Translations under genes and position numbers: made by a program
Source of the DNA: Flavobacterium palustre
GTDB lineage: Bacteria > Bacteroidota > Bacteroidia > Flavobacteriales > Flavobacteriaceae
Direction of reading: 5' to 3'
Assembly (NCBI RefSeq): GCF_014639535.1
Contig: NZ_BMGA01000002.1
Coordinates: 186,001-250,000 of the forward strand
DNA: 64,000 nucleotides
The notes under the pieces: model-generated
Seen by the model: only the letters and a program-made list of their open reading frames with translations
Databases searched by the model: none
Told to the model about the DNA's origin: nothing
Part shown: piece after piece, positions 10,881-48,804 of the stretch
Layout of the letters: each line of letters begins with the position of its first letter
Numbering within the stretch: the first letter of the stretch is position 1

Positions 10881-10885
10881 AAAAT

Positions 10886-14145: not shown

Positions 14146-14182
14146 TAATTAAAGCTTTTTAAATTTTATAATTGTCATTATT

Positions 14183-26756: not shown

Positions 26757-26829
26757 AGTTGGAAGCTTGGAGTTGGAAGCTTGAAGTAAAATTTGCTTCT
26801 TCTAACTCCCAACTTCTAACTCCCAACTT
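26756..26829. repeat. Inverted repeat between hisB and hisH
   Basis: The left arm (26756-26786) repeats AAGTTGGAAG and AGTTGGAAGC, and the right arm (26796-26829) repeats CTAACTCCCAACTT; they pair imperfectly over about 30 bases. Confidence 0.65.
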
Positions 26830-26837
26830 AAAAAGAA

Positions 26838-27419: not shown

Positions 27420-27447
27420 AATTTCAATAACAATATTAAAAATCAGC

Positions 27448-27478
27448 GGAATGAGATTGCTTCGTTCCTCACAATGAC
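27448..27478. repeat. Short REP-like repeat fragment before hisA
   Basis: The stretch contains GAGATTGCTTCGTTCCTC followed by ACAATGAC, a motif type that recurs as an intergenic repeat in Bacteroidota genomes. Only one arm is present here. It includes a possible upstream hisA start at 27474. Confidence 0.4.
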
Positions 27479-27485
27479 AAATAAA

Positions 27486-28211: not shown

Positions 28212-28277
28212 TTTATTGTTAATAGTTTGTAGTTGTAGAACGGCAAACCTTAAACAATAAACCACTAACAACAAACA
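28210..28277. repeat. Imperfect inverted repeat between hisA and hisF
   Basis: Bases 28210-28234 (AGTTTATTGTTAATAG and more) and 28253-28277 are complementary at about 19 of 25 positions. Its words resemble the repeat between fabG and the VWA gene at 10817. Confidence 0.6.
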
Positions 28278-28283
28278 AAAAGA

Positions 28284-29039
28284 ATGCTTACAAAAAGAAT
28301 TATCCCTTGTTTGGATATCAAAAACGGGAGAACTGTAAAAGGAGTAAATTTTGTAGATTTGCGCGATGCGGGAGATCCGGTGGAATTAGCCAAAATTTAT
28401 TCGGATGAAGGAGCTGACGAATTAGTGTTTCTGGATATTTCAGCAACGGAAGAAAGAAGACGAACTCTGGTTGATTTGGTTCGAAAAGTAGCTTCGACTA
28501 TCAATATTCCGTTTACTGTGGGGGGAGGAATTTCGGCTGTTGAAGATGTTGAAGTATTGTTGCAAAATGGTGCTGACAAAGTTTCCATTAATTCCTCAGC
28601 GGTTAAAAATCCCCAGTTGATTAACGATTTGGCACAGAAATTCGGAAGTCAATGTGTGGTGGTAGCTATTGATGCCAAGCAAATTGATGGGGAATGGATT
28701 GTGCATTTAGTAGGAGGAAAAGTACCAACAGAAATTCGATTATTTGACTGGGCTGTTGAAGTAGAACAAAGAGGAGCAGGAGAAATTCTTTTTACCTCAA
28801 TGGATAATGACGGGACCAAAAACGGATTTGCTAATGAAGCTTTGGCTAAACTGTCAAGCTTAGTGAATATCCCGATTATTGCTTCAGGTGGTGCCGGAAA
28901 CATTCAGCATTTTGTGGATAGCTTTGCTAAAGGAAAGGCTGATGCAGCCCTGGCAGCCAGTGTTTTTCATTTCAAGGAAATTGAAATCAAGGCTTTGAAA
29001 AAAGAACTTAAAAATAACAATATAGAAGTCAGAATCTAA
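28284..29039 (+). CDS. hisF: Imidazole glycerol phosphate synthase, cyclase subunit
   Basis: HisF closes the imidazole ring with ammonia from HisH and releases AICAR. The 251-residue TIM barrel starts [23 protein letters not shown], with the catalytic Asp in CLDI. It continues with [28 protein letters not shown]-type blocks, the second catalytic Asp in [13 protein letters not shown], and phosphate-binding IIASGGAG. It follows hisA directly and is followed by hisIE after 27 bases. Confidence 0.96.
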
Positions 29040-29066
29040 AATCTGAATTCTAAAATCTAAAATAAA

Positions 29067-29666
29067 ATGGAAATAGATTTTTCAAAAAGTGCACACGGAT
29101 TAATTCCCGCCATCATTCAGGATAGTGAAACTAAAAATGTTTTGATGTTAGGCTATATGAACGACGAAGCTTATCAAAAAACAATTGAGACAGGAAAAGT
29201 AACTTTTTTTAGTCGCTCTAAGCAACGTCTTTGGACAAAAGGAGAGGAAAGTGGTCACTTTTTAAATTTGGTTGATATTAAGAATGATTGCGATGGTGAT
29301 ACACTTTTAGTTCAGGCTGTTCCTGTAGGACCAACTTGCCACACGGGTGCTGATACCTGTTGGCAAACTCCAAACGAAAGCAGTTATGGTTTTATTTCAG
29401 AATTGGAAAATACCATTCAGTCAAGAAGAGAAAAAGCAGATTCTGAACAAAGTTATGTGGCTTCTCTTTTTGCAAAAGGAATCAATAAAATAGCTCAAAA
29501 AGTAGGGGAAGAAGCCGTAGAAGTGGTTATCGAAGCCAAAGACGCTAATGATAATTTATTTTTAGACGAAAGTGCTGATTTATTATTCCATTATTTGATT
29601 TTATTACAAGCTAAAGGATACAAATTAGAAGATGTTATTAAGGTTTTAAAAAGCCGTCAGAAATAG
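29067..29666 (+). CDS. hisIE: Bifunctional phosphoribosyl-AMP cyclohydrolase / phosphoribosyl-ATP pyrophosphatase
   Basis: The 199-residue fusion performs steps two and three of the pathway. Residues about 1-105 are the HisI cyclohydrolase with FFSRSKQRLWTKGEESGH, the metal/zinc ligands DCDGDTLLVQAVPVGPTCHTGADTCW (Asp and Cys residues). Residues about 110-199 are the HisE pyrophosphatase helical domain with KVGEEAVEVVIEAK and DESADLLFHYLILL. It is the last his gene, and an inverted repeat with a T run follows it. Confidence 0.95.
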   Translation: MEIDFSKSAHGLIPAIIQDSETKNVLMLGYMNDEAYQKTIETGKVTFFSRSKQRLWTKGEESGHFLNLVDIKNDCDGDTLLVQAVPVGPTCHTGADTCWQTPNESSYGFISELENTIQSRREKADSEQSYVASLFAKGINKIAQKVGEEAVEVVIEAKDANDNLFLDESADLLFHYLILLQAKGYKLEDVIKVLKSRQK

Positions 29667-29806: not shown

Positions 29807-30934
29807 ATGATTTTTGATAAAACTCATTTTTCAGAAGATTTAATCGATACTAAAATAAAAACAGGACTATACATCATATTGACCACTGACGAAGACGATT
29901 CCCGTCCGGTATATATATCGGGCAATTTTAACGATTGGCGTACTCAGGACAAGGAATTTATGATGGAAAAAGTAGGTGTAGGTCTGTATCATTATAAGTT
30001 CACGCATGATTTTGATTATCCGGAAACCTTATTGTATAAATTTACTAAAGGAGACTGGAGTGATGTAGAAATTGGTATTAATGAAGAGCGAACAGAAAAT
30101 CGTTCAACAACTAAACATACTGGAATTCAAAACGAACATGTATTTAAATGGAGAAGAAACTGGTTGCCATTCAAGCCTAATTTTTTGCCTCAAATCCAGT
30201 TAATATCGGATGAATTTGAAATTCCGCAACTCAATACAACCAGAAAAATTTGGGCTTTATTGCCACATGATTATGATGCTTCGGAAGAAAGTTATCCGGT
30301 GATGTATTTGCAGGATGCCCAGAATTTATTCAATGAAAATGCTGAATATGGTAATTGGGAAATTGACAAAAAGTTGGCGGTAATGTCCGAATACAAAGTG
30401 GGGAAGATTATCGTTATTGCTGTTGAACATGCCGAAGAAGACCGAATAAAAGAATACAATGTAGGGAAAACAGTTTTAGGAAAAGGCAGAGGGAAAAAAT
30501 ACATTCAGTTTTTAGTTGAAACCTTAAAACCTTATGTTGACAGTAATTTCAGAACTAAAAAAGAAAGAGAATTTACAGGAATAGGAGGAAGTTCGATGGG
30601 AGCTTTGGTAAGTATCTTTAGTGGTTTAAGATATCCGGAAGTATTTGGTAAATTGATGATATTTTCACCTTCACTTTGGGTTAACCCAAAAATAAAAGTT
30701 AAAGAAGCTGAAAATTCCGGAGACACTAAAATTTATTTGTATGCCGGAGGTGATGAAAGTGAAACCATGATTGAACATGTGGAAACTTTTAAAAACCGAA
30801 TACTTGAAAATGAATTTGTTAATGATAAGATGAAGATTAATCTCAGTATTAACAAATTAGGAAAACACAATGAAACCTATTGGAGTGACGAATTCCCTAA
30901 AGCAATAGAGTGGTTATTTTTTAGTACTAAGTAA
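29807..30934 (+). CDS. Alpha/beta hydrolase (esterase) with N-terminal glycogen-binding-like (CBM48/E-set) domain
   Basis: This 375-residue protein has no signal peptide. Residues about 20-110 resemble a CBM48/E-set fold (PVYISGNFNDWRTQDKEF, LYKFTKGDWSDVEIG). Residues about 140-375 form a putative esterase domain (COG2819 type): YPVMYLQDAQNLF near the start, a nucleophile elbow GIGGSSMGALVS (Ser), an Asp candidate in YLYAGGDESET, and a His candidate in GKHNETYWSDEFP. It opens the plus-strand half of the ligase/peptidase cluster, so it may cut an ester or amide in the cluster's product or precursor. Confidence 0.8.
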   Translation: MIFDKTHFSEDLIDTKIKTGLYIILTTDEDDSRPVYISGNFNDWRTQDKEFMMEKVGVGLYHYKFTHDFDYPETLLYKFTKGDWSDVEIGINEERTENRSTTKHTGIQNEHVFKWRRNWLPFKPNFLPQIQLISDEFEIPQLNTTRKIWALLPHDYDASEESYPVMYLQDAQNLFNENAEYGNWEIDKKLAVMSEYKVGKIIVIAVEHAEEDRIKEYNVGKTVLGKGRGKKYIQFLVETLKPYVDSNFRTKKEREFTGIGGSSMGALVSIFSGLRYPEVFGKLMIFSPSLWVNPKIKVKEAENSGDTKIYLYAGGDESETMIEHVETFKNRILENEFVNDKMKINLSINKLGKHNETYWSDEFPKAIEWLFFSTK

Positions 30935-30980
30935 TTGGAAATATTTAATGACATACCGTAACAACGATTTATCATATAAA

Positions 30981-31066
30981 CATATAAGTCAAGTAAGAAT
31001 TAAATCTACAATGCACTTATTGTTACTTAAGGTATATAAGTAAAAAAACTTAAATGACTTATATGG
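30981..31066. repeat. Inverted repeat with ATATAAGTCA core before the aminopeptidase gene
   Basis: CATATAAGTCAAGTAAG (30981-30997) and CTTAAATGACTTATATG (about 31050-31066) are complementary at 15 of 17 positions. The same core recurs at 36298-36355. The coordinate of the right arm may be off by one base. Confidence 0.6.
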
Positions 31067-31114
31067 TTGAAAAAAGCGATATTGTTTTACTCTTACAACT
31101 TAAAGACAATTAGA

Positions 31115-32545
31115 ATGAAAATAATAAAGATTGATAGTTTAGAAAATTTTTCAGGAACAGTTTTAGTTCCTGTTTTTGAAACTGCTGCCAAAGATTTGGT
31201 TCCAATCCAATTTGAAGGACTGGAAATTTCATCCAGGTTATTTTCCGGCAAAAAAGACACTTATTATTTAGCCGAAAAAAACGGCACTATTTTTATTTTT
31301 ATTGGCTTAGGAAAAACAACTGATTATAAATCGTTAAAAACAAATTTCAGAAGAATTGCTTTCAAAGAAAAAGACACATTTAGCTCAAATGTGTCTTTAT
31401 TTTTACCGGATGTTTTTACTGAAGAACTGGTGGAAGCCGCTATTTTAGGATTGCTTTTAGGAACTTATAATTTAGGACATTATAAAAAGCAAGATACTCA
31501 TCCGTTTTTGAATGCTGATTTTATACTTCAAATTTTATCAGCTAATGATTTTTCGAAATCCATTGATAAGGCTATAAAAATTGCGAGAGCCCAACTGGAA
31601 ATTTTCAGCCTAGTTGATTTACCTCCTAATAAAGTAACTCCAAAATTTTTAGCACAATGGGCTCAAAATAAAGGAAATCATTATGGTTTTGATGTAAAAG
31701 TGCTGGGATTAGAAACCGCTAAACAAGAAAATCTTGGTGCTTTTGTAGCGGTTGGAAAAGGAAGCGAAAATGAAGCTCAATTTGTAATTATGAATTACAG
31801 TCCTAAAAACGCTGAGGCTAATTTAAAGCACCTTGGTTTGGTTGGGAAAGGAATCACTTTTGATACCGGCGGATTGAATATCAAGACATCGGGCATGGTA
31901 CATATGAAATGTGATATGGCTGGTGGAGCTGCTGTTTTGGGAGCAATGCAACTGATAGCCGATTTACAATTGCCGGTAAAAGTTACTGCTATTGTTCCTT
32001 GTGCCGAAAATTCGGTCGATAGTAAGTCTTTTTTACCAAGTGATGTTATCCATAGTTACAGCGGTAATACCATTGAAATTATCGATACGGATGCCGAAGG
32101 CCGATTGGTTTTGGCCGATGGATTATCATACTTAATTAAGAATTACAATCCTGAATATATTGTAGATATTGCCACGCTTACAGGAAGCAGTGTGGCTACT
32201 TTTGGATACGAATGTGCCGCTTTGTTTAGTAATAATGAGGTGATTTCGAAAAAACTTCAGGAAATAGGTGAGAAAATCGGAGAGCGTTTATGGCCGTTAC
32301 CACTATGGGATGATTATAAAAAGGACATAGAAAGTGACATTGCCGATGTGAAGAATTTTAGCGGAAAACCAGTAGCCGGAGCCATCAGCGCAGCTAAATT
32401 CTTAGAGTTTTTTACTAAAGAACATAAGGCCTGGGCGCACTTGGATATAGCCGGTGTTGCCTTTGGTGATGACGAATTTGCAAAAAGTAAACATGCAACT
32501 GCTTATGGTGTACATTTATTGACTAAATTCATAGAAAATTTATGA
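31115..32545 (+). CDS. M17 family leucyl aminopeptidase
   Basis: This 476-residue cytoplasmic dizinc aminopeptidase shows the full M17 active site: GKGITFDTGGLNIKTSG (Lys and Asp ligands), HMKCDMAGGAAVLGAM (Asp), the signature block DTDAEGRLVLADGLSYL (Asp and Glu; usually NTDAEGRL), and the bicarbonate-site region. The N-terminal domain (about 1-170) is variable as usual. I start at the ATG at 31115, which opens with MKIIKIDSLENFSG; an upstream TTG would add an unsupported leader. It ends 4 bases before the ATP-grasp gene, so the two are translationally linked. It may trim the cluster's product rather than be a housekeeping PepA. Confidence 0.9.
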   Translation: MKIIKIDSLENFSGTVLVPVFETAAKDLVPIQFEGLEISSRLFSGKKDTYYLAEKNGTIFIFIGLGKTTDYKSLKTNFRRIAFKEKDTFSSNVSLFLPDVFTEELVEAAILGLLLGTYNLGHYKKQDTHPFLNADFILQILSANDFSKSIDKAIKIARAQLEIFSLVDLPPNKVTPKFLAQWAQNKGNHYGFDVKVLGLETAKQENLGAFVAVGKGSENEAQFVIMNYSPKNAEANLKHLGLVGKGITFDTGGLNIKTSGMVHMKCDMAGGAAVLGAMQLIADLQLPVKVTAIVPCAENSVDSKSFLPSDVIHSYSGNTIEIIDTDAEGRLVLADGLSYLIKNYNPEYIVDIATLTGSSVATFGYECAALFSNNEVISKKLQEIGEKIGERLWPLPLWDDYKKDIESDIADVKNFSGKPVAGAISAAKFLEFFTKEHKAWAHLDIAGVAFGDDEFAKSKHATAYGVHLLTKFIENL

Positions 32546-32549
32546 CATT

Positions 32550-33764
32550 ATGGAAAGTGCTAAAAGTTTCGTTTGTATCTCAAATTATTTTAAAGGAACT
32601 GATTTTCTAATTCAGTTAAAAAAACTGGGGAATACCGTATATCTTGTAACTAGTGAGAAACTACGTGACAAGCCTTGGCCACATGATTATATAGACGAAA
32701 TTTTCTATATGCAGGGACAGGATACCGATTGGAATTTAGAGCATTTATTACTGGGAGTTGGCAATTTGATGAAAACGAACAAGGTTGACGCCATAGTAGC
32801 ATTGGACGATTATGATGTTGAAAAAGCCACTTATCTAAGAGAAAATCTCAGAATTGACGGGATGGGACAAACTACAGGCCGTTATTTTAGAGACAAACTC
32901 GCTATGAGAATGAGAGCCAAAAGTTGCGGAATTCCTATTCCGGCATTTTGTTCTTTATTTAATGACCATGACATCAATACTTTTGCCGATACTGTTGCTC
33001 CACCCTGGGTTTTAAAACCACGTTCCGAAGCTTCTGCATCCGGAATTATAAAGGTTTTTGATAAAGAAGCTTTGTGGATTCATATTACCGAAATGGGCAA
33101 TAATCGTTTTAAATATTTATTGGAACAATTCAAACCCGGCGATGTCTATCATTGTGACAGTTTGGTTTTAGACCGTAAAAAAATATTCAGTCTGACTTCA
33201 AAATATCTGGCTACGCCAATGGAAATAACACAAGGAGGAGGCGTTTTTAGAAGTTCGAATATTCCATACGATTCGGAAGACGATATCGAAATCAAAAAAG
33301 TAAATGAAGAAGTGCTGAAAAGCTTTGGTTTGAAAAATGGAGCGGCTCATACCGAATTTATAAAATGCAATGAAGACGGGAAAATCTATTTTCTGGAAAC
33401 TTCTTCCCGTGTAGGTGGTGCTCATATTGCCGAAATGGTCGAAGCGGCTTCGAATATTAATCTTTGGAAAGAATGGGCTATAATTGAAGATGCTTTGGTA
33501 AAAGAAAAAATATATCAATTGCCAAAAGTAAAAAAAGAATACGCCGGTATCGTTTTGACTCTGTCAAAATACCAACATCCTGATTTATCCTCTTTCTCTG
33601 ATCCTGAAGTTTGTTTCAGGGTTCCGTTGGATTATCATGCGGGATTAATAGTGAAATCGGATAAAAGTGAACGAGTTTTGGAATTACTCAACAATTATGT
33701 TGATCGTTTAATTGCCGATTATACTGTGGTTGTAGCACAAAACAAAGTCACTAAACTGCATTAG
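32550..33764 (+). CDS. ATP-grasp ligase (carbamoyl-phosphate-synthase-like fold)
   Basis: This 404-residue cytoplasmic protein has a pre-ATP-grasp Rossmann-like domain (about 1-105), then the ATP-grasp: PPWVLKPRSEASASGIIKVF contains the ATP-binding Lys and glycine-like loop, FKPGDVYHCDSLV the central strand, and HTEFIKCNEDGKIYFLETSSRVGG the magnesium ligands (Glu and the following Arg/Glu). Such enzymes activate a carboxylate as acyl-phosphate and join it to an amine. The amine and acid are unknown. It is joined 4 bases after the M17 aminopeptidase gene. Confidence 0.85.
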   Translation: MESAKSFVCISNYFKGTDFLIQLKKLGNTVYLVTSEKLRDKPWPHDYIDEIFYMQGQDTDWNLEHLLLGVGNLMKTNKVDAIVALDDYDVEKATYLRENLRIDGMGQTTGRYFRDKLAMRMRAKSCGIPIPAFCSLFNDHDINTFADTVAPPWVLKPRSEASASGIIKVFDKEALWIHITEMGNNRFKYLLEQFKPGDVYHCDSLVLDRKKIFSLTSKYLATPMEITQGGGVFRSSNIPYDSEDDIEIKKVNEEVLKSFGLKNGAAHTEFIKCNEDGKIYFLETSSRVGGAHIAEMVEAASNINLWKEWAIIEDALVKEKIYQLPKVKKEYAGIVLTLSKYQHPDLSSFSDPEVCFRVPLDYHAGLIVKSDKSERVLELLNNYVDRLIADYTVVVAQNKVTKLH

Positions 33765-33780
33765 TTATAACTACAAACTT

Positions 33781-33851
33781 TGTCATTCCGACGAAGGAGG
33801 AATCTCATCAAGTAATTCAGATAATGGGATTCCTCCTTCGTCGGAATGACA
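33781..33851. repeat. REP-like palindromic repeat
   Basis: Bases 33781-33808 and 33824-33851 are reverse complements at 27 of 28 positions, with a 15-base loop. The arm begins TGTCATTCCGACGAAGGAGG. Its GC content is far above the neighbourhood. Palindromes with this ATTCCGACGAAGGAGGAATC core are scattered in Bacteroidota genomes. It lies between two same-strand genes and overlaps a possible upstream start of the next one. Confidence 0.8.
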
Positions 33852-33881
33852 AATATTACTTTCAAAAAAGACTTCAAATTC

Positions 33882-35537
33882 ATGAAAATACTTTGTCTTT
33901 TCTTTTTTATGTCATTCTTTATTTCGAATGGAATAAAAGCACAATCACTTTTGGGTAACCCAACAATTTCGTTTACAAAGCAAGACAGTTTGCGTGGAAG
34001 TATCACAAAAGAAAGATCCTGGTGGGATTTAAAACAATATCGCTTAGACATAAAAGTAAACCCTTTAGATAGCACAATTACAGGTTCTAACGCTATTAAA
34101 TATCAAGTTTTACAAGAGTACAATGTAATGCAGATTGATTTGCAAAAACCTTTAGAAATCAGCAAAATTATTCAAGACGGTGTAGCCTTAAAATACAGCC
34201 GTGAAGGCAATGTTTTTTGGGTTGATTTAGTCACTCCTCAAAAAGCAGGTACAATAAAAGAACTCACCATTTTTTATGGAGGCAAACCTAAAGTTGCTGT
34301 TAATCCGCCTTGGGACGGAGGAATTAGTTGGAAAAAAGACAGTAATGGAAAACCTTTCATTGCTTCTTCCTGTCAGGGATTGGGCGCCAGTGTTTGGTGG
34401 CCAAATAAAGATCATATGTATGACGAAGTCGATGATATGTACATTAGTGTTAATGTTCCGTCGGATTTAATGGATGTTTCCAATGGTCGTTTGCTGAGTG
34501 TGAAAAAACAAAAAAATAGCACTACAACTTACAATTGGTATGTTTCCAATCCGATAAATAATTACGGAGTTAACATCAATATTGGTGATTATGTTTCTTT
34601 TTTAGAGAAATATAAAGGCGAAAAAGGAATTTTAAATTGCAGCTATTATGTTTTGAAAAATAATTTGGCGAAAGCCAAAAAACAATTCAGGGAAGTTCCC
34701 CGAATGTTAAAGGCTTTCGAATATTGGTTTGGTCCTTATCCTTTTTACAAAGACGGTTATAAGTTGGTTGAAGTACCTTATTTAGGCATGGAACATCAAA
34801 GTTCAGTAACCTATGGAAATGGATTTCAAAATGGTTATTTAGGTCACGACATGAGCGGGACAGGCTGGGGACTGAAATTTGATTTTATTATTGTTCACGA
34901 ATCTGGGCACGAGTGGTTTGCTAACAACATTACTTATAAAGATATTGCCGATATGTGGATTCATGAGAGTTTCACCAATTATTCCGAAAGTCTTTTTGTG
35001 GAATATTATTATGGTAAAAAAGCGGGATTTGAATATGTTATTGGAACGAGAAAAGGTATTGCTAATGATTTTCCTATCATTGGGAACTATGATGTAAACC
35101 ATAAAGGCTCAGGAGATATGTATCCAAAAGGAGGAAATATGCTGCATACTTTGCGCCAAATTGTAAATGATGACCAAAAATGGAGAAAAATTTTAAGAGG
35201 TTTAAACAGTACTTTTTACCATCAAACTGTTAGCACGAAGCAAATTGAGGATTATTTGAGTCAGCAAGCAGTAATGGATTTGAATCCTTTTTTTAATCAA
35301 TATCTGAGAGATACGAGAATACCAATACTAGAATATTATTTTAAAGAAGGACAATTATTTTATCGTTGGAGCAATTGTGTTGCTGGATTTAATATGCCAA
35401 TTAAAATCTCGATTAACGGAGTTGAAAAATGGTTGAAGCCTGAAACTGATTGGAAAACAGAGCTTAATACTGATCAAAATTCAAAATTGCTGATTGATGT
35501 CAATTTTTATGTGACAGGAATTCAGATTAGAAAATAA
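33882..35537 (+). CDS. Exported M1 family metallopeptidase
   Basis: This 551-residue protein has a signal peptide (residues 1-23, ending GIKAQ) and the M1 aminopeptidase architecture: an N-terminal beta domain, the substrate block YLGMEHQSSVTYG (usually GAMEN), and the zinc motif HESGHEWFANNITYKDIADMWIHE (HExxH with the downstream Glu). The helical C-terminal domain is short, as in the Bacteroidota periplasmic group. I start at the ATG at 33882, which opens with the signal peptide; an ATG at 33846 lies in the palindromic repeat. It could digest peptides in the periplasm, possibly including an exported cluster product. Confidence 0.9.
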   Translation: MKILCLFFFMSFFISNGIKAQSLLGNPTISFTKQDSLRGSITKERSWWDLKQYRLDIKVNPLDSTITGSNAIKYQVLQEYNVMQIDLQKPLEISKIIQDGVALKYSREGNVFWVDLVTPQKAGTIKELTIFYGGKPKVAVNPPWDGGISWKKDSNGKPFIASSCQGLGASVWWPNKDHMYDEVDDMYISVNVPSDLMDVSNGRLLSVKKQKNSTTTYNWYVSNPINNYGVNINIGDYVSFLEKYKGEKGILNCSYYVLKNNLAKAKKQFREVPRMLKAFEYWFGPYPFYKDGYKLVEVPYLGMEHQSSVTYGNGFQNGYLGHDMSGTGWGLKFDFIIVHESGHEWFANNITYKDIADMWIHESFTNYSESLFVEYYYGKKAGFEYVIGTRKGIANDFPIIGNYDVNHKGSGDMYPKGGNMLHTLRQIVNDDQKWRKILRGLNSTFYHQTVSTKQIEDYLSQQAVMDLNPFFNQYLRDTRIPILEYYFKEGQLFYRWSNCVAGFNMPIKISINGVEKWLKPETDWKTELNTDQNSKLLIDVNFYVTGIQIRK

Positions 35538-35593
35538 AATAGACTAATTTTATACTGTAATTTAGAAAATTTCTAATTGATTATTCCATCATC

Positions 35594-36292
35594 ATGAGAC
35601 ATCATTATTTTTTTATATCGTTTTTTCTATTGCTGTCAGTGGTTGATTATAGCCAAAACAGCAATGTAAAATCAGATGAGTTACTCACCAGTACTGACTC
35701 TATTGAAGCGGCTCCAAGAATCAATTTGGACTCTATTCATTTGGATCCGACAAGTGAGATGTTAGACGAAGAAAGTTATTGGAAAATTATTGAAAGCTCA
35801 TTAAAAGAAACTACCAATCAGGAAGATCAGGAAATTTTCCTTACTGCTGAGTTAGAGAAACTTTCTCCAAAGGAGGTGATTGGTTTTCGTCTGAGAACCG
35901 ACAAACTTTTATTTGATTCTTACACTTCTAATTTATGGTGTGCTAACTATGTCATCAGTAATGGAGCTGCCGATGATAGTTTTGATTATTTCAGATGTTG
36001 GTTGATTTCAAGAGGAAAAGAAGCTTATTATAAAACACAGGAAAACCCCGATAATTTAGTTAATTTGGTGGGTAATGAACCTCAAGCTTATGATTTTGAG
36101 GGCTTTTGGTACGTAGCCAATAATGCTTTTAAAAATCTTACTCATAAAGAGGTGGAAAGTTATGTGGATTATGAAAAATTCACTACAACTGACGTACATT
36201 ATCCCATTTTAGAATTCAATTGGAATGTTGACGATCCTAAAACAATGGAAAAAGTTTGTCCTGTTTTGTTTAAGAAATTCTGGAAGAAATAA
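35594..36292 (+). CDS. Exported DUF4240 protein
   Basis: This 232-residue protein has a signal peptide (about residues 1-20) followed by a linker. Residues about 60-180 match the DUF4240 family: EESYWKIIESSL, LEKLSPKEVIGF, WCANYVISNGAADDSFDYFRCWLISRGKEAYY. That family is usually cytoplasmic and of unknown function, so a signal peptide is slightly unusual. It follows the M1 peptidase by 56 bases and is the last plus-strand gene before the convergent cluster. Confidence 0.75.
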   Translation: MRHHYFFISFFLLLSVVDYSQNSNVKSDELLTSTDSIEAAPRINLDSIHLDPTSEMLDEESYWKIIESSLKETTNQEDQEIFLTAELEKLSPKEVIGFRLRTDKLLFDSYTSNLWCANYVISNGAADDSFDYFRCWLISRGKEAYYKTQENPDNLVNLVGNEPQAYDFEGFWYVANNAFKNLTHKEVESYVDYEKFTTTDVHYPILEFNWNVDDPKTMEKVCPVLFKKFWKK

Positions 36293-36297
36293 TTTCC

Positions 36298-36355
36298 ACC
36301 ATATAAGTCATATAAGTTTTGACCTCTTTTTTTTATATTAAATGACTTATGTGGT
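36298..36355. terminator. Hairpin between convergent operons
   Basis: ACCATATAAGTCAT (36298-36311) and ATGACTTATGTGGT (36342-36355) are complementary at 13 of 14 positions. It stands between the plus-strand DUF4240 gene and the minus-strand ATP-grasp gene and could end transcripts from both sides. The core is shared with the repeat at 30981. Confidence 0.5.
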
Positions 36356-36415
36356 AAAAAAATAGTAGTTGTTAATTTGAAGTCCATATAAGAAGTTTAT
36401 AATTTTTTCTTCAAA

Positions 36416-37606
36416 TTATCTTTCAAACAATCCAATAGTTCCGCCCACCCAGTCTTTGTCCTGATTGTATTTTACACCAATCATTTCGCCACGGCTCAAA
36501 CGCACTAAATTACACAAAAGAGTAGGAGAGGTATCATCTTTTTTCCAAGTGCAAAGCATTCTCACTTCAGCTTTTACTTTACCGTCAGGTGATTGTACAA
36601 TAGGAAGATAATTGACTTTTTTCTGAAGAATATAAAGCTCTTTGTCCTTAACGGCTTCGATGTCTTCACGTTTGACATGGAAAATAACACCGGAACCAGA
36701 GAAAGAGAATAAAGGTTTTAAAACATAATTTTCTAAGTCTTCCGGAATTTCTTTTAACTCGCTCAATAAAGTGGTTTCGATGAAATATTTTCCTTTTAAC
36801 AGCGGCAAAATGAACTTACTGATTCTGAAAAACCAGTTGGGATGTCCGGCCCATTCTACATCCAGTTCATCTGAAAAACTGAAATTCATTTTCAAATCGG
36901 GGCGCAAGTCTAATTCGTCAAAAATAACTCTGTTGTAAATGCGTTTTACCAATATTTCGTCACCATTTTCGTTTTTGTAAAATAGCTGATTCCCTTTTTT
37001 AATTAAATCGGTAACGCATACAAAAGGGATTCCGAGATCTCTTTTACAGTAATAAAAATCAATTTTGGTGTTTTGTTTTTCAGGTTCTATTTCGAGCAGA
37101 ATAACATTTTCCTTAGGATGATTGTTGCAAAAAACTTCCTCTAAAGTTTTTAGATATTGCTGTGGTGTCGTACCATTTAAAAACGGTGTTAATTCATCAA
37201 GAAAAGGATAATATGTTTTGAATTTCTCGAATAAATTTACCTGATAATTAAACAAGGAAGGAAATCCCTGTACTTCAATTAATTTAGGAATTGTTTTTCC
37301 GTCTTCTTCACAAATTCCAAAATCGATAGCCAGAAAAGTACTGTGTTCGTCTTCATTTGGAACTTTATTGTTTAATTCTAATGCCTTATTGGTAAGTTGT
37401 TTAAAATTTTCTTTTTGAACTAAAGCTATAACATCATTACAGCCTTCAATCAGCTGTGCTTTTAATTCATTCGAAATGAAAAAAGGAGTTTCTCCTAATC
37501 GAAAAGTAGGTGCGTAATCAAAATCCTGAGCGATACTATCTTTTAATTGTTGGTATTTTTCCTGAGTGAATTGCTCGTTGAATAACTTTCGATATTTTGA
37601 AATCAT
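36416..37606 (-). CDS. Atypical ATP-grasp-like ligase
   Basis: This 396-residue protein has no signal or membrane segment. The N-terminal part holds FLAIDFGICEEDGKTIPKLIEVQGFPSLF, which resembles the metal-binding end of an ATP-grasp. The C-terminal part holds NYVLKPLFSFSGSGVIFHV, resembling the ATP-binding Lys and glycine-rich loop, and VKAEVRMLCTW. The order of these blocks is reversed relative to normal ATP-grasps, as in circularly permuted (glutathionylspermidine-synthetase-like) members. I therefore read it as a peptide-forming ligase. I prefer the ATG at 37606 (MISKYRKLFNEQF) over one 30 bases upstream. It is the last gene of the minus-strand cluster. Confidence 0.65.
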   Translation of the reverse strand: MISKYRKLFNEQFTQEKYQQLKDSIAQDFDYAPTFRLGETPFFISNELKAQLIEGCNDVIALVQKENFKQLTNKALELNNKVPNEDEHSTFLAIDFGICEEDGKTIPKLIEVQGFPSLFNYQVNLFEKFKTYYPFLDELTPFLNGTTPQQYLKTLEEVFCNNHPKENVILLEIEPEKQNTKIDFYYCKRDLGIPFVCVTDLIKKGNQLFYKNENGDEILVKRIYNRVIFDELDLRPDLKMNFSFSDELDVEWAGHPNWFFRISKFILPLLKGKYFIETTLLSELKEIPEDLENYVLKPLFSFSGSGVIFHVKREDIEAVKDKELYILQKKVNYLPIVQSPDGKVKAEVRMLCTWKKDDTSPTLLCNLVRLSRGEMIGVKYNQDKDWVGGTIGLFER

Positions 37607-37628
37607 ACAGTTTTTGAATGTTAAAAAA

Positions 37629-37730
37629 AGGAACACAGATGATACTAATTTAGCAGATTAAAAGAAATTTTTAATTTTAATCTGTGTTAATTAATTTAAT
37701 CTGTTATATCGGTGTTCCAATATTTTATTA
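37629..37730. repeat. Imperfect inverted repeat between the amidotransferase and ATP-grasp-like genes
   Basis: GGAACACAGAT near 37631 has its near-complement at about 37710-37720 (CGGTGTTCC), with inner arms made of AATCTGTG and CAGATTAAAA words. It fills most of the 138-base gap, which shows no clear promoter. Confidence 0.5.
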
Positions 37731-37744
37731 GCATAAATAATTTA

Positions 37745-38575
37745 TTAATTAGACATGATTTTTTTAGATTTCATCAGGTCAGTAATGGCAGAACGAAGAA
37801 AATTAGGAATCAGGGTTTCGTTAGTTCGATATATTTTATCATCGTCAACCAAGTCTTCCAGCATATTTCTGAATTTTCTTTTGCCTTTCATTTTTCTTAT
37901 TTTGTCTTTTATATCCTTATTTCTTAGATGTGACAGAAAACTAATAGGATCGGCTTCGGGATGAAATTGCGTTCCCACTAAATGATCTGTAAAGCGTACC
38001 GCCATAATGGCTCTTTCGTATTGCACATGATCTCTTATTTTTTCCAGAGAAATGATTTTAGCACCTTTTTTGGCAAAAACACTCAATTTAGGCTGTATTA
38101 CCTGATAATCTCTGGAATCAATGGCGTAAAATGGATCGGCTAAACCTTCAAACAACAAATCCTTAAGGCCATCTTTGGTTTTATGGATAGTCATTACACC
38201 AAATGAGGTGTCGTGTCTTTTGGTAATTTCGGCCAGTCCAAAATGTTTACAGGCCATCTGAAAAGAATGGCAAATAAACAAAACATGTTTTTTTATCGGA
38301 TTTTCACTGTTCCATTTTACAATGGAATCAATAAAAGCATAATATTTTTTATCCCAGTTTCCATCGCCTTCCAGTGGATTTCCCGGACCACCAGAGGATA
38401 TATAAATATCAAACTGATCAATTTCGGGTAATTCACATTTTCCTCTGACATCAAATATTTTAAAACACACAAAAGGAGCAAATCGGCTAACAACATCAAT
38501 TATACATCGCATTCCCTGATTAGGTTCACCATTGTACATGTCTAATATTGCTACTGTTATACTTTTCTTTTTCAT
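37745..38575 (-). CDS. Class-I glutamine amidotransferase-like protein
   Basis: This 276-residue protein is a stand-alone GATase-1 domain (about 1-225) with a basic C-terminal tail. The nucleophile Cys is in VLFICHSFQMACKHFG and the His and Glu partners in GTQFHPEADPISF. The start DMYNGEPNQGMRCI and SSGGPGNPLEG fit the family. Without a synthetase domain it either donates ammonia to a partner ligase or hydrolyses a gamma-glutamyl amide, as PuuD-type enzymes do. Its neighbours YbdK and ATP-grasp make either plausible. The ATG at 38575 is preferred over a GTG 9 bases upstream. Confidence 0.82.
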   Translation of the reverse strand: MKKKSITVAILDMYNGEPNQGMRCIIDVVSRFAPFVCFKIFDVRGKCELPEIDQFDIYISSGGPGNPLEGDGNWDKKYYAFIDSIVKWNSENPIKKHVLFICHSFQMACKHFGLAEITKRHDTSFGVMTIHKTKDGLKDLLFEGLADPFYAIDSRDYQVIQPKLSVFAKKGAKIISLEKIRDHVQYERAIMAVRFTDHLVGTQFHPEADPISFLSHLRNKDIKDKIRKMKGKRKFRNMLEDLVDDDKIYRTNETLIPNFLRSAITDLMKSKKIMSN

Positions 38576-38619
38576 TAGTCCCACTTTTTAAAATAATTAT
38601 TCAAAGATAAGTTATTATT

Positions 38620-39726
38620 TTATAAGCCTTTAGTAAATTCTGAAGTTATAAAATCAACTACTTTAGTCAGGTCTTTTGTTTCTTCAAAAACGGCCAATTG
38701 TTTGTCGGCTCCAGTACCATTTTTCAGGATTTGGTGCGCAAAATTAATATGCTCCCTGCTGCCTAATTCGTCCACAACATCTTCAATAAAATCAAGTAAT
38801 TCAAGAATCAACATTCTGGTTTCCACTTCTTTTTGAAGTCCAAAATCAATCATCTGTCCTTCAATTCCATAGCGGGCAGCACGGAATTTATTTTCTTTTA
38901 TCAATGCCAATCGATAAATATTGAAACTCATGTTTTGTGAATTGAGTCGGTATAATTTGGCTACAACGGCCTGTATTATAGAGACAATGCACATGGTTTC
39001 TTCAACCGTCAAACTCATATCACAAATGCGAAATTCAATGGTGTCATAGAAAGGATGCAAACGTAAATCCCACCAAATTTTCTTTGGATTATCAATACAG
39101 CTGGTTTTTACCAGCGTTTCCAAAAAGTTATCGTAAGAGGATAAGGAATCGAAATATTCCGGTAACCCAGTTCTTGGAAATTTATCAAAAACCTTTGTTC
39201 TGTATGATTTGTAACCTGTTTGTCTGCATTCCCAAAAAGGGGAATTAGTAGATAACGCAAAAATATGCGGTAAAAAATAACAAGCCTGATTGATTAACTG
39301 TAACCCAATTTCGCGGTTTTCAATTCCCACATGGCAGTGCATCCCGAAAATCAAATTAGAACGGGCTGCATCCTGTAATTCGTTGATAATATTATGATAA
39401 CGGGGATCATCGGTTATGGGTTGATCCTGCCATTTTGAAAATGGATGTGTTCCTGCACCTCCAACGATAAGCCCCTGTTTATCGGCTAATTCTACAATTT
39501 TTGTCCTTAGAAACTTAATCTCACATTCGGCTTCTTTGACATTTTTACAGATATTTGTTCCTACTTCCACAACCGACTGGTGCATTTCGGCTTTTACCTG
39601 TTCGTTTAATAATATTTTGGCTCCATCGACAATTTTGGACAAATGGGAGCGTAAATCACGGGTTTCGGGATCTATAATTTGGTATTCCTCTTCAATACCA
39701 AGCGTAAAAACAGGCAATTTTTTCAT
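38620..39726 (-). CDS. Carboxylate-amine ligase of the YbdK/GCS2 family (COG2170)
   Basis: This 368-residue protein is related to gamma-glutamylcysteine ligase 2. Family blocks are TLGIEEEYQIIDPETRDL (metal-binding Glu residues) near the start, MHQSVVEVGTNIC, GGAGTHPFSKW, GMHCHVGIEN and WDLRLHPFYDTIEFRICDMS. E. coli YbdK joins glutamate and cysteine weakly; the true substrates of the clustered members are mostly unknown. The gene lies 44 bases upstream of the amidotransferase gene and 16 bases after the RimK-like ATP-grasp gene, all one operon. Confidence 0.9.
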   Translation of the reverse strand: MKKLPVFTLGIEEEYQIIDPETRDLRSHLSKIVDGAKILLNEQVKAEMHQSVVEVGTNICKNVKEAECEIKFLRTKIVELADKQGLIVGGAGTHPFSKWQDQPITDDPRYHNIINELQDAARSNLIFGMHCHVGIENREIGLQLINQACYFLPHIFALSTNSPFWECRQTGYKSYRTKVFDKFPRTGLPEYFDSLSSYDNFLETLVKTSCIDNPKKIWWDLRLHPFYDTIEFRICDMSLTVEETMCIVSIIQAVVAKLYRLNSQNMSFNIYRLALIKENKFRAARYGIEGQMIDFGLQKEVETRMLILELLDFIEDVVDELGSREHINFAHQILKNGTGADKQLAVFEETKDLTKVVDFITSEFTKGL

Positions 39727-39742
39727 TTAAATATTCCGATAG

Positions 39743-40690
39743 TTATTTAAGTCCAACAGCATCTTTCATAAAAGTTCCCCAGGTCAGATTGATTTTTTCT
39801 GGTTTTTGTTTTTTTGCGGCAGCAATAGCCATTTTTGCAGCTTCTTCGACCACCCATTCGAAGTTTTCTGCTCCTACCGAATTGATATCGGCATCAGGTG
39901 CCGGATTTCCAAAATCAATAGCATAAGGAATCCCGTCACGCACAGCAAATTCTACGGTATTAAAATCGTATCCTAAACCTTTGCAAAGACGAATCGTGTA
40001 ATCTTTGATAGTAGCTAATAGTTTTTTATCTACCGGAGGTCCGTCAAGAACATAACGCAAATGGGGTTGATTTCGGGGTTCATATTGCATGATTTTAACC
40101 GCTTTACCACCTAAACAATACACTCTGAAATATTCGGTAAAAACAATTTCTTCCTGTAACAACATCACTAATTGACCCGTTTCACTGTGTTTCTCCCAAA
40201 ATTCTTCTTTGTTTTCCAGTCGATATACATTTTTCCATCCACCGCCGGCATACGGTTTCATATAAGCAGGAAATTTTACATAGTCAAAAATGCCTTCCCA
40301 GTCTAATGGAAATTGTAAGTTTCTAAAAGATTTAGAAGTCGTATCCGTGGGATGTTCCGCTGAAGGAAGAATTACGGTATTAGGCAACGGAACACCCAAT
40401 GTATCCGCTAAGGCATTATTGAAAAATTTATCATCAGCACTCCACCAAAAAGGGTTATTGATTACATTAGTTCCTGTTAAAGCGGCATTTTTTAGAAAAG
40501 CACGATAAAACGGAACATCTTGTGAAATTCTGTCAATAATTACCGCATATTCACCGCCTTTGTTTTGGATAACCTTATCAATAGAAACGGCTTCGGCTAT
40601 AATGTCTTTTTCATTTTTTGAATTTACTCTATCAATAAAAGCCTGTGGAAAGGTGTCTTCCATTCCAAATAAAATTCCGATTTTCTTCAT
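39743..40690 (-). CDS. RimK/D-Ala-ligase-like ATP-grasp protein
   Basis: This 315-residue protein starts with a short Rossmann-like domain (MKKIGILFGMEDTFPQAFIDRVN). The ATP-grasp follows, with YVKFPAYMKPYAGGGWKNVYRL (ATP-binding Lys and glycine loop), VMLLQEEIVFTEYFRVYCLGG, and the metal ligands in TVEFAVRDGIPYAIDFGNPAPDAD. It should ligate a carboxylate to an amine. In the operon it sits between the COG4947-like esterase and YbdK-type ligase, which suggests that the two ligases act one after the other on the same molecule. Confidence 0.85.
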   Translation of the reverse strand: MKKIGILFGMEDTFPQAFIDRVNSKNEKDIIAEAVSIDKVIQNKGGEYAVIIDRISQDVPFYRAFLKNAALTGTNVINNPFWWSADDKFFNNALADTLGVPLPNTVILPSAEHPTDTTSKSFRNLQFPLDWEGIFDYVKFPAYMKPYAGGGWKNVYRLENKEEFWEKHSETGQLVMLLQEEIVFTEYFRVYCLGGKAVKIMQYEPRNQPHLRYVLDGPPVDKKLLATIKDYTIRLCKGLGYDFNTVEFAVRDGIPYAIDFGNPAPDADINSVGAENFEWVVEEAAKMAIAAAKKQKPEKINLTWGTFMKDAVGLK

Positions 40691-40733
40691 GTTTATTGTT
40701 TCTTTACTACTTTATTACTTTTTTATAGTTGGT

Positions 40734-41447
40734 TTAGCTAAATTTAATTCGGGATAAATAATGAGGAAACATTTCTTTCCAAAGTGGCCAGTCGTGTGGC
40801 TTATTCTGCCTGATATCAAGCCAATGGTGCATGCTTTTGTCAGACAAGAGTTTACTCATTTTCAGATTGGCATCAAAACAAATATCCCAATTGGAAGTTC
40901 CCAGAACTACATCCATATTCCACAATTCATAATCATTAAGACCATGCAGATAATCGTCGGGACTGTGATAGAAAACAGCATCATTATGGAAGCCGTCTAA
41001 GTAACTTTTGATATTGAAAATACCGCTCATACTAAACAAATGACTCACATAACCGGGATGTCTAAAGGCAAAATTAGAAGCATGATAACCTCCAAAACTA
41101 CAACCTGCCATCACCACTTTTCCAGAAGGGGTATTGTGTCGCACTTTTTCCACAATTTCATGACAAATCATTTTGTCGTACCAATCGTGATTTTCTATGC
41201 GGTGTACCGGATGGATATGTTTGTTGTAAAAACTGTCTTTGTCAATACTGTCGGGACAATAAATTTGGATTAATCCCTGTTCGACATACCATCTTACCGA
41301 TTCAATTAACCCCATGTCTTTATTTTCGAAATAACTTCCCATGGAGGTTGGAAACAGGATTACGGGATAGCCTGAATGACCAAAGACAAGCATTTGGGTA
41401 TCCCTATTCAAATTAGGAGAATACCATTTAAAATAATCCTCTTTCAT
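40734..41447 (-). CDS. Esterase-like alpha/beta hydrolase (COG4947 type)
   Basis: This 237-residue cytoplasmic hydrolase is the first gene of the minus-strand operon. The nucleophile elbow is GKVVMAGCSFGGYHASNF (Ser), an Asp candidate lies in GTSNWDICFDAN, and the His is probably in NKPHDWPLWKEMFPHY. The opening MLVFGHSGYPVILFPTS matches the COG4947 esterase group, which is often found next to ATP-grasp and COG2170 ligases. It may remove an ester or thioester-linked group from the product. Confidence 0.82.
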   Translation of the reverse strand: MKEDYFKWYSPNLNRDTQMLVFGHSGYPVILFPTSMGSYFENKDMGLIESVRWYVEQGLIQIYCPDSIDKDSFYNKHIHPVHRIENHDWYDKMICHEIVEKVRHNTPSGKVVMAGCSFGGYHASNFAFRHPGYVSHLFSMSGIFNIKSYLDGFHNDAVFYHSPDDYLHGLNDYELWNMDVVLGTSNWDICFDANLKMSKLLSDKSMHHWLDIRQNKPHDWPLWKEMFPHYLSRIKFS

Positions 41448-41629: not shown

Positions 41630-42034
41630 TTAGCCTACTAAACTTTGATCAAATAACTGCACCTGATTTTTTAGTCTTTCAATAAGCATATTCATCATGC
41701 GTTTGTTTAGGTTCGATGAATTCCTGATGTACAATAAATATTCATCAACCGTAAACAAGGCAATAATCATCCCTTTTAGAGCATTCCTGAACTTGATGTC
41801 TTTTTGAATGGCATTTTCGATAATGGTTAATTTTTTTTCGACACTGAGTGTGTAAAAATCCCTTTTGTATTTACTAATGTAATTGTGGAAAGAAGCAATG
41901 AATAAATCATTTTGTAGTTTTAATATGGGTCTCAAAACTTCATTTTGAAAAATTTCATCTGCTGAAGATTGCGTGCTAACACTCCCGATAGCTTCACCTC
42001 TGAATTCACTTAAAAAACGATCTCTCTGGTCCAT
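41630..42034 (-). CDS. Conserved small helical protein of unknown function
   Basis: This 134-residue protein is almost entirely helical and charged, with no signal peptide, membrane segment or Cys pair. It contains FQNEVLRPILKLQNDLFIASFHNYISK and a C-terminal amphipathic region (MMNMLIERLKNQVQ). I do not recognise a characterised family. It is flanked by gaps of more than 170 bases on each side and appears to be transcribed alone. Confidence 0.65.
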   Translation of the reverse strand: MDQRDRFLSEFRGEAIGSVSTQSSADEIFQNEVLRPILKLQNDLFIASFHNYISKYKRDFYTLSVEKKLTIIENAIQKDIKFRNALKGMIIALFTVDEYLLYIRNSSNLNKRMMNMLIERLKNQVQLFDQSLVG

Positions 42035-42159
42035 CTTTTTTTCTTAAATATAGGAAAAAAAAGTATCGAAGAATTTTTATTTTAATGTAAATATAAGGAG
42101 TGATTCATAATTTAACAGTTATAAATAACTACTGTTTGAAAATCAGTTTGTTACAAAAT

Positions 42160-42188
42160 AAAACCGCTAATTGGTGAATTAGCGGTTT
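42160..42188 (-). terminator. Intrinsic terminator of the DUF3817 gene
   Basis: AAACCGCTAATT (42161-42172) pairs perfectly with AATTAGCGGTTT (42177-42188) around a 4-base loop; on the minus strand the stem is followed by a T-rich run. Confidence 0.75.
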
Positions 42189-42210
42189 CAGTTTTTATAG
42201 TGAAATTTTA

Positions 42211-42507
42211 TTATTTTGATAAAAGCGGCTCTTTACAGTATTTCTTTTCTACATAAAAAGTACCAAAAGGCAGTAAAGAAGCAATTAGAATAATTCCAAA
42301 ATCTTTTAAACTCCATTTTTGTGCATTTTTCAATAAAAAAGCTAAAATGATATAGCCAATAAACAAAATTCCGTGACTCATTCCGATTGGATACAAAAGA
42401 GTGTGGTACAATTCGAAATTGTTAGGTTTAATAAAAAGCATATTGGAGAACAGAACTAAATAAGAAATTCCTTCAAGAAGAGCGGTAATTTTAAAAATCT
42501 TAAGCAT
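42211..42507 (-). CDS. DUF3817 integral membrane protein
   Basis: This 98-residue protein has three membrane segments (about 8-26, 40-60, 70-87) and matches the DUF3817 family: FKITALLEGISYLVLF at the start, YPIGMSHGILFIGYIILAFLL in the middle, and a positively charged C-terminal tail. The function is unknown. It is divergent from the DUF6155 gene and ends just before a strong terminator. Confidence 0.8.
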   Translation of the reverse strand: MLKIFKITALLEGISYLVLFSNMLFIKPNNFELYHTLLYPIGMSHGILFIGYIILAFLLKNAQKWSLKDFGIILIASLLPFGTFYVEKKYCKEPLLSK

Positions 42508-48783: not shown

Positions 48784-48804
48784 TCCTTAAAATGGTAATG
48801 CGTT

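Follow-up and report, generated by a model that had tools for sequence, protein, structure and literature searches.

Gene content of the locus

Ten open reading frames lie between positions 29807 and 41447 of the window, the term used here for the whole 64,000-nucleotide stretch of Flavobacterium palustre DNA that was analysed, and they are arranged in two convergent runs with 123 bp between their stops. A first-pass annotation of this DNA had described this ten-gene content and the two convergent, tightly spaced runs, and both are borne out by the ORF coordinates, most of the Pfam families being over their cut-offs (PF00756 esterase for EstA, M17, ATP-grasp_4, M1, DUF4240, GATase, GCS2, and the alpha/beta hydrolase of EstB).

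The plus-strand run begins with EstA (29807..30934, 375 aa), a PF00756 esterase (E 2e-27) with an N-terminal extension, upstream of which his-type genes are found. It is followed by M17 (31115..32545, 476 aa; PF00883, E 6e-110), a leucyl-aminopeptidase-type peptidase whose ORF has an alternative TTG start at 31067, and by ATPg (32550..33764, 404 aa), an L-amino-acid-ligase-type ATP-grasp protein that matches ATP-grasp_4 with 29.9 bits against a cut-off of 27. An M1-type aminopeptidase (33846..35537; PF01433), with an N-terminus that looks by eye like a signal peptide, and a DUF4240 protein (35594..36292; PF14024, E 7e-32), in which an N-terminal hydrophobic stretch was likewise noted by eye, complete the run. 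Taking 31115 as the start of M17, the successive gaps are 180, 4, 81 and 56 bp.

On the minus strand EstB comes first (40734..41447, 237 aa), an alpha/beta hydrolase over the Pfam cut-offs for both Abhydrolase_1 and Esterase. Then come the RimK-like ATP-grasp ligase (39743..40690, 315 aa), which serves here as marker and core gene; GCS2, a YbdK/GCS2-type carboxylate-amine ligase (38620..39726, 368 aa; Pfam GCS2, E 1e-58); GAT, a class-I glutamine amidotransferase-like protein (37745..38575, 276 aa from ATG; PF00117 over cut-off); and CPg, a ligase of the circularly permuted ATP-grasp type (36416..37606, 396 aa). The intergenic gaps are 43, 16, 44 and 138 bp. On a precursor search limited to the locus, a graspetide or other RiPP identity was rejected, since the 138-bp gap, the longest of the four, holds no minus-strand ORF of at least 20 aa, and just upstream of EstB only a 22-aa ORF precedes a 134-aa ORF. 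The stretch separating the two runs was scanned for small ORFs with nothing notable, and no Rfam element was matched at window positions 24000-45000. The promoter scan gave no excess (46 sites, against 50.2 in shuffles), and terminator-like sites numbered 18 against 7.8 expected, many of them falling inside genes.

By its profile matches, ATPg belongs to the L-amino acid ligase family (L-amino acid ligase 4wd3, E 2e-24; 3vot, E 9e-12; BacD, E 1e-6), and dipeptide formation is predicted for it. GCS2 passes the PRK13515 equivalog cut-off over its full length (511 bits against 371, residues 5-367) and matches the solved YbdK-type proteins 1tt4 (E 7e-50) and 1r8g (E 8e-49). The Cys, His and Glu of GAT are invariant in 24 sequences and present in at least 97% of 54; this protein also resembles homoserine O-succinyltransferase, and it could be an acyltransferase instead of an amidotransferase. 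EstB retains S117, D188, D211 and H218 in 97% or more of 75 sequences.

The two remaining ligases are more divergent, and neither passes any Pfam or NCBIfam cut-off. The RimK-like window protein has no Pfam match at E 0.01, and its match to NCBIfam rimK_fam is weak (26.9 bits, cut-off 143.4). R2K_2 is matched, weakly, by 18 of 34 of its relatives at E <=0.05, the window protein being below the cut-off. Its conserved residues include K145, E180, E181, E247, D259 and N262, with K145 invariant and K153 nearly so. The CPg window protein is below the Pfam gathering score for GSP_synth, CP_ATPgrasp_1 (E 0.0013, 18.2 bits, cut-off 23.1) and CP_ATPgrasp_2. Among its relatives, at E <=0.05, GSP_synth is matched in 15 of 30 and CP_ATPgrasp_1 in 4 of 30, and the only solved relative listed is YgiC (profile E 0.044); these matches suggest that CPg is a circularly-permuted-type ATP-grasp, with D95, E111, K297, E347 and R349 conserved. 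The likely catalytic residues are kept in these cluster enzymes.

Conservation, linkage and inheritance

Of the 80 closest named loci, 72 retain the order EstB, RimK-like, GCS2, GAT, CPg, which argues that the arrangement is not due to chance; farther out this order is less often preserved. In a phylum sample of 247 genomes from 43 families, the RimK-like marker was found in 86, two of them through distant matches. ATPg was found in 52 of the 247, and all 52 also carry the RimK-like gene (Fisher p 1e-30, uncorrected for relatedness); at the family level, all 18 families with ATPg are among the 28 of 43 with the RimK-like gene (p 4e-5). The reverse does not hold, with ATPg not found in 34 of the 86 RimK-bearing genomes. 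As for CPg, the RimK-like gene accompanies it in 70 of 73 genomes, three having CPg without it. Physical linkage is looser outside close relatives: of the 52 genomes with ATPg, 9 have it no more than 10 kb from the RimK-like gene, and CPg lies as close in 41 of the 70 genomes with both genes, some contigs being short. One relative, L145, has all eight genes (EstA, M17, ATPg, EstB, RimK-like, GCS2, GAT and CPg) in a single co-directional run, and certain RimK-like genes stand without any of the partners alongside.

The partners are not uniformly retained. Of 22 selected genomes with the RimK-like gene, 10 gave no GCS2 match at E 1e-20, GAT was not seen in L069, L142, L217 and L218, and in ten loci a different permuted-type ATP-grasp occupies the place of CPg; a profile comparison of CPg with this replacement, with 5 sequences on one side, lent no support to a relationship (probability 2.7%). 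The core of the system is the RimK-like enzyme plus a permuted-type ATP-grasp. GCS2 being dispensable, gamma-glutamyl chemistry is optional, and the earlier suggestion of a gamma-glutamyl-linked product is not supported as the chemistry that defines the system. Taking into account the variable absence of GCS2, ATPg and GAT and the replacement of CPg, more than one product is likely.

In the plus-strand module, M17 adjoins ATPg in all 30 ATPg loci of named relatives. A further 20 unlinked ATPg loci, from genomes that are for the most part more distant, have M17 next to ATPg in 6 cases and EstA near it in 7, three of the latter being weak matches. M1 accompanies ATPg in 14 of the 23 loci from Flavobacterium, and the 19 non-Flavobacterium loci among the 30 named-relative ATPg loci all lack it beside ATPg; it is therefore a companion at the genus level, not a core member. 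DUF4240, present in 3 of 80 operon loci, is a local neighbour of narrow distribution and also lies outside the core. The ten window genes are thus not one fixed unit, and the comparison splits them into three layers: the five minus-strand genes, EstA with M17 and ATPg, and the accompanying M1 and DUF4240 genes.

Seven of the cluster genes group Flavobacterium with Cyclobacteriaceae (SH-aLRT 98-100), whereas rpoB from the same genomes, used as a control, places Flavobacterium with other Flavobacteriaceae (100); joint transfer is therefore indicated. No match to plasmid carriage was found, and of the 67 pattern matches in viral contigs none is a relative. It has been held, in the first-pass annotation, that scattering of the genes in close relatives, with the M17 and M1 genes conserved apart from the ligases, would speak against a single cluster. 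Such scattering is partly seen, since in Cyclobacteriaceae and some Flavobacterium the ATPg/M17 module is apart from the five-gene operon, and the operon loci of the Cyclobacteriaceae included in the trees showed neither gene. M17, for its part, stays with the ligase ATPg in the named relatives and is among the genes sharing the joint-transfer tree.

Several neighbouring functions were also considered. Genes for cyanophycin synthetase, cyanophycinase and isoaspartyl peptidase lie next to the cluster in L145, cyanophycin synthetase is close to CPg, by coordinates, in two other genomes of the same genus, and isoaspartyl peptidase is nearby in another genus (L086, L089, L093). A general link to cyanophycin was rejected, the RimK-like gene being found in 13 of 30 genomes with cyanophycin synthetase as compared with 86 of all 247 (p 0.31), and the window genome has no cyanophycin synthetase. 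In three genomes belonging to a single family, histidine ammonia-lyase adjoins the RimK-like gene; there is one distant match in L014 and no wider pattern among the loci compared. A role in anti-phage defence was likewise discarded, as none of eight window proteins matches PADLOC profiles at E 0.001.

A proposed pathway and its alternatives

We propose, with confidence a little short of even, that EstA, M17, ATPg, EstB, the RimK-like enzyme, GCS2, GAT and CPg constitute one modular, co-inherited pathway that builds and degrades a small cytosolic peptide-like amide. The order of the steps, the substrates, the sharing of a single compound and its cytosolic location are what we infer. Assembly would occur by stepwise ATP-dependent ligation. 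Thus, ATPg would first join two L-amino acids, or else couple an acid to an amino acid, and the RimK-like enzyme would extend or modify this product. CPg, on account of its distant GspS/YgiC-type relatives, may then cap the free carboxylate with an amine, while a gamma-glutamyl or comparable amide would be an optional addition by GCS2. GAT might supply ammonia from glutamine or, alternatively, remove a gamma-glutamyl group, and the two esterase-fold hydrolases together with M17 would recycle or edit the product. The earlier proposal that the cluster makes and trims one peptide-like metabolite is retained in part, in that ligases, esterase and M17 are co-inherited, and has to be narrowed by leaving M1 and DUF4240 outside the core. 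Its suggestion of export is not supported, no exporter being seen among the cluster genes of the window; the one link to transport that was noted comes from two genomes of a single family, where a sodium:solute symporter is fused to the permuted-type ligase or lies next to it.

Among the alternatives, the one that best survives, unlikely as we consider it, is a compatible solute similar to N-acetylglutaminylglutamine amide (NAGGN), that is, a capped and amidated di- or tripeptide accumulating under osmotic stress, with M17 recycling it. The kinds of parts are similar, since the NAGGN operon (asnO-ngg-aminopeptidase) combines non-ribosomal dipeptide synthesis, glutamine-dependent amidation and an aminopeptidase (PMC8070244). 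Unrelated peptidases recur near the ligases (M17; M29 in L218; M14 in L115 and L118; M20 in L120 and L130), although single neighbours of this type may be chance. A channel gene, identified by clustering, is near the operon in 22 loci, and the one tested, from L001, is a mechanosensitive channel; however, such a channel gene is seen in Flavobacterium-type loci only and is missing at the corresponding position of the window. Moreover, four ligases exceed what NAGGN needs, no acetyltransferase or class-II amidotransferase is among the Pfam/NCBIfam matches of the window, and no asparagine synthase (AsnO) is among the matches of its ten proteins.

Modification of a protein or ribonucleoprotein, in which the RimK-like enzyme would tag a macromolecule in the manner of RimK acting on S6, while making or removing the tag would fall to the other enzymes, appears quite improbable. 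The RimK-like protein is the most conserved member, with 82-88% identity between its Cyclobacteriaceae copies and the window protein, where GAT and CPg reach 57-69%, and protein modification has been proposed for the R2K_2 clade that it weakly resembles (PMC4431377). Lys-rich C-terminal tails occur in 21 of 78 RimK-like sequences, and among 34 relatives there are weak matches to histone-H1-like HC2 in five and a helix-hairpin-helix in one. No such tail is present, however, in the window protein or in any of the 48 relatives sharing at least 80% identity, and a dipeptide-type ligase, M17 and two esterases better match a small molecule.

Scarcely more credible, and if anything slightly less so, is a conjugate of the glutathione or glutathionylspermidine kind, in which GCS2 would form a gamma-glutamyl dipeptide, the RimK-like enzyme would add the third residue and CPg a polyamine. 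The family types fit (GCS2, an ATP-grasp and a weakly GspS-like permuted ATP-grasp). The PF00756 esterases and M17 would act as they do in glutathione turnover, and both EstA and EstB match PF00756 over its cut-off. Against this, GCS2, present in the window, is one of the dispensable genes; the bacillithiol gene bshC is found in 242 of 247 genomes, so that there is no thiol gap to fill and the presence of the cluster cannot reflect a lack of bacillithiol; and the CPg relative YgiC has been reported to lack glutathionylspermidine synthase activity (PMC12506659). The least probable reading, that the five-gene operon and the esterase-M17-ATPg operon are independent neighbours with unrelated roles, draws on their separation in some lineages, on the small share of ATPg genomes (9 of 52) in which the RimK-like gene is within 10 kb and on the RimK-bearing genomes without ATPg, but has to face the fact that none of the 247 genomes was seen to carry ATPg in the absence of the RimK-like gene, the transfer history that the modules have in common and the co-directional eight-gene run of L145.

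Returning to the proposed amide pathway, a broader and more tentative version of it, which we regard as possible while not expecting it on balance, is that the RimK-like enzyme and CPg define a phylum-wide Bacteroidota pathway for a new class of small intracellular peptide-amides, in which interchangeable modules would tune the product by lineage and move together between classes. The modules in that reading are the gamma-glutamyl ligase, the dipeptide ligase, the GATase, the peptidases and the esterases. Should the pathway prove real, roughly a third of the phylum genomes in the sample (86 of 247) would carry genes for a small metabolite whose synthesis follows neither NRPS nor ribosomal-peptide logic. 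The genes form a compact set, found in environmental type strains such as Flavobacterium flevense (L001), and the two ligase families outside Pfam/NCBIfam cut-offs may be useful as new amide-forming enzymes.

Comparison with known systems

The cluster is not described in the titles and abstract openings of the top-ranked literature matches, by which absence from print is not claimed. It is of the same general kind as the amidoligase neighbourhoods reportedly collected by Iyer et al. in 2009, in which ATP-grasp and glutamine-synthetase-like ligases are said to be linked with peptidases and peptide metabolites predicted, and which may or may not already include the present cluster. With the L-amino acid ligases it shares ATPg, a clear profile match, which here stands beside M17 and an esterase and is co-inherited with a five-gene ligase operon. 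Similarly, GCS2 is a clear member of the YbdK/PRK13515 ligases, found here between the RimK-like and class-I GATase genes.

The NAGGN operon has dipeptide synthesis, glutamine-dependent amidation and an aminopeptidase in common with the present genes (PMC8070244). The amidotransferase is here of class I and not of the asparagine-synthase type, there are extra ligases and two esterases, and the acetyltransferase is lacking. In the E-64 pathway, an ATP-grasp enzyme and an amide bond synthetase give, independently of NRPS, a product composed of an acid, an amino acid and an amine (PMC12568646). This pathway is fungal, its second ligase is not an ATP-grasp, and its acid-making oxygenase has no counterpart here, but both systems are alike in the use of successive NRPS-independent ligases.

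Gene order in the window and among close relatives

The ten open reading frames listed in the first-pass annotation are all found in the window, with the families given there. The plus strand carries an esterase-type gene (EstA, 29807-30934), an M17 aminopeptidase (31115-32545), an L-amino-acid-ligase-type ATP-grasp (ATPg, 32550-33764), M1 (33846-35537) and DUF4240 (35594-36292). The minus strand carries, in transcription order, a second esterase-type gene (EstB, 41447-40734), a RimK-like ATP-grasp (40690-39743), a YbdK-type carboxylate-amine ligase (GCS2, 39726-38620), a class-I glutamine amidotransferase-like gene (GAT, 38575-37745) and a circularly-permuted-type ATP-grasp (CPg, 37606-36416). 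The RimK-like gene, used as marker, is single copy in this genome, and Flavobacterium flevense is the nearest named relative in the scan (97% identical RimK-like protein).

As for the surroundings, reading frames directly upstream of EstA (25620-29666) read by eye as hisB, hisH, hisA, hisF and hisIE, and G+C reaches 41.6% at 48001-50000, against 31-39% in the remaining 2-kb stretches. A 134-aa reading frame (41630-42034), without Pfam match at E 0.001, is kept upstream of EstB in 28 loci, window included, nearly all of Flavobacterium type. A channel gene lies close to the operon in 22 Flavobacterium-type loci (the single one tested, L001:6771-8030, is of mechanosensitive type) and is absent from the matching place in the window, 42034-42211.

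Scanning named genomes with the RimK-like protein gave at least 591 confirmed relatives, the best 80 of which were analysed; these loci are therefore the closest ones. The five minus-strand genes keep the same order on one strand in 72 of these 80 (Flavobacteriaceae 35, Cyclobacteriaceae 19, Sphingobacteriaceae 7, Spirosomataceae 4, others or unranked 7). Among the exceptions, a contig edge was seen near the last gene found in L037, L070 and L076; L056 and L063 have neither GCS2 nor an EstB match, L069 neither GAT nor an EstB match; L068 holds the RimK-like gene and GAT only, and L049 the first three operon genes only. The neighbourhood check upholds the five-gene run of the cluster first proposed, but not its M1 (5/80) and DUF4240 (3/80) members; the M1 match of L038 is 42% identical and lies on the opposite side of the operon. 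Since M1 adjoins ATPg in 14 of 23 Flavobacterium ATPg loci, it is a genus-level companion of ATPg, and DUF4240 is a local neighbour. ATPg and M17 lie near the operon in 21 of the 80 loci, all Flavobacteriaceae except one rankless record. Two records, titled as MAGs of Bifidobacterium breve (L017) and Lentimicrobium (L037), contain the RimK-like gene at about 90% identity to that of the window; these contigs are probably mis-binned Flavobacterium.

Co-occurrence and modularity across the phylum

Of 247 genomes of the phylum, surveyed at E 1e-60, 86 carry the RimK-like gene, 73 CPg and 52 ATPg. The RimK-like gene is present in all 52 ATPg genomes and in 70 of the 73 CPg genomes (exceptions G144, G154 and G220). 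At family level, the 18 ATPg families all fall among the 28 RimK families (43 families, lists entered by hand, p 4e-5), the genome-level Fisher values ignoring relatedness. Physical linkage is weaker than this co-occurrence: with some contigs being short, at most 10 kb separate CPg from the RimK-like gene in 41/70 genomes, and ATPg from it in 9/52 (13 within 30 kb). Of the 59 named loci with no ATPg nearby, 42 were taken for a genome-wide search, which found it elsewhere in 35 genomes; six of the other seven are Pedobacter or Mucilaginibacter. M17 adjoins ATPg in all 30 loci fetched from named relatives (best 30 of 35) and in 6 of 20 unlinked ATPg loci from the phylum survey, so this link fades with distance. 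In locus L145, eight genes form one co-directional run, EstA-M17-ATPg-EstB-RimK-GCS2-GAT-CPg. This run (139-17465) is flanked on one side by glycogen synthase and branching enzyme, and on the other by cyanophycin synthetase, cyanophycinase and isoaspartyl peptidase.

Ten loci from distant families (L086, L087, L089-L093, L095-L097) have, 3' of the RimK-like gene, a replacement permuted-type ATP-grasp of about 450-470 aa, followed by GAT; CP_ATPgrasp_2 passed cut-off in one of the two tested. An additional esterase-type gene comes next in seven of the ten (PF00756 in L087, the one tested), and ATPg is close in three. At E 1e-20, 10 of 22 genomes, picked mainly for loci lacking GCS2, gave no match to it. 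Elsewhere, an M29 aminopeptidase stands between GCS2 and CPg (L218), one 867-aa reading frame combines CPg with a sodium:solute symporter domain (L203:4637-7240, Pfam), CPg follows a symporter of this type in L209 (Pfam), and an amidohydrolase gene abuts CPg in L204, L205, L207 and L214 (Pfam run on L204 and L207). With CPg (70) or the replacement (ten) counted, the RimK-like gene occurs with a permuted-type ATP-grasp in 80/86 genomes, and these two come closest to a constant core. In one family, three genomes (L134, L137, L138) have a histidine ammonia-lyase gene next to the RimK-like gene.

Transfer history

In quick trees with hand-chosen rows (EstA left out), Flavobacterium and Cyclobacteriaceae, which NCBI ranks in different classes, form one branch side for RimK-like, EstB, GCS2, GAT, CPg, ATPg and M17. 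SH-aLRT of this branch was 99-100 in a first set (39 to 49 rows), whose Flavobacterium group took in one unranked record (L022), and 98-100 in a second (at most 27 genomes; ATPg 22, M17 21). None of the seven trees grouped Flavobacterium with other Flavobacteriaceae, whereas rpoB from the same 27 genomes did so (100), and not with Cyclobacteriaceae. This disagreement indicates a common transfer history of the seven genes, ATPg and M17 included; no ATPg or M17 was seen in the operon loci of the Cyclobacteriaceae placed with Flavobacterium.

Predicted enzymes, product and known systems

ATPg is a predicted member of the L-amino acid ligase family (E 2e-24 against 4wd3), and GCS2 is assigned by sequence to the YbdK type. 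GAT keeps Cys-His-Glu in 24/24 aligned sequences, and one of its two solved matches is homoserine O-succinyltransferase. The RimK-like protein of the window passed no Pfam cut-off and its ATP-grasp-type residues are conserved; going by their families, the conserved residues noted in the cluster enzymes are the likely catalytic ones. A tail averaging 25% Lys occurs in 21 of 78 RimK-like relatives, and in none of the 48 at 80% identity or above; in L052:10001-11380 it ends in a helix-hairpin-helix domain. CPg resembles GspS-type permuted ligases weakly, its sole solved match being YgiC, which is reported to be without glutathionylspermidine synthase activity (PMC12506659).

The set comprises four predicted amide-forming ligases, one glutamine-amidotransferase-type enzyme, two esterase-fold hydrolases and one aminopeptidase. 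The window cluster showed neither a carrier protein nor a precursor peptide, nor an exporter, which leaves the suggested export of the product without a candidate gene there. Taking into account these ligases and hydrolases, and the lack of exporter, carrier and precursor, the set would most likely fit the making of a small cytosolic compound, assembled stepwise and recycled, in an order of steps that we infer. As GCS2, ATPg and GAT are each missing in some lineages, the product probably differs between them.

The two nearest working analogies are NAGGN (PMC8070244) and the acid-amino acid-amine pathway of E-64 (PMC12568646), the cluster being a member of neither. The window members of the two paired ligase families have no Pfam or NCBIfam model at cut-off. 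The kind of system is already known, as NRPS-independent amidoligase clusters; what is new to us, with reservation, is the pairing of the two ligase families, the breadth of this pairing and the joint transfer.
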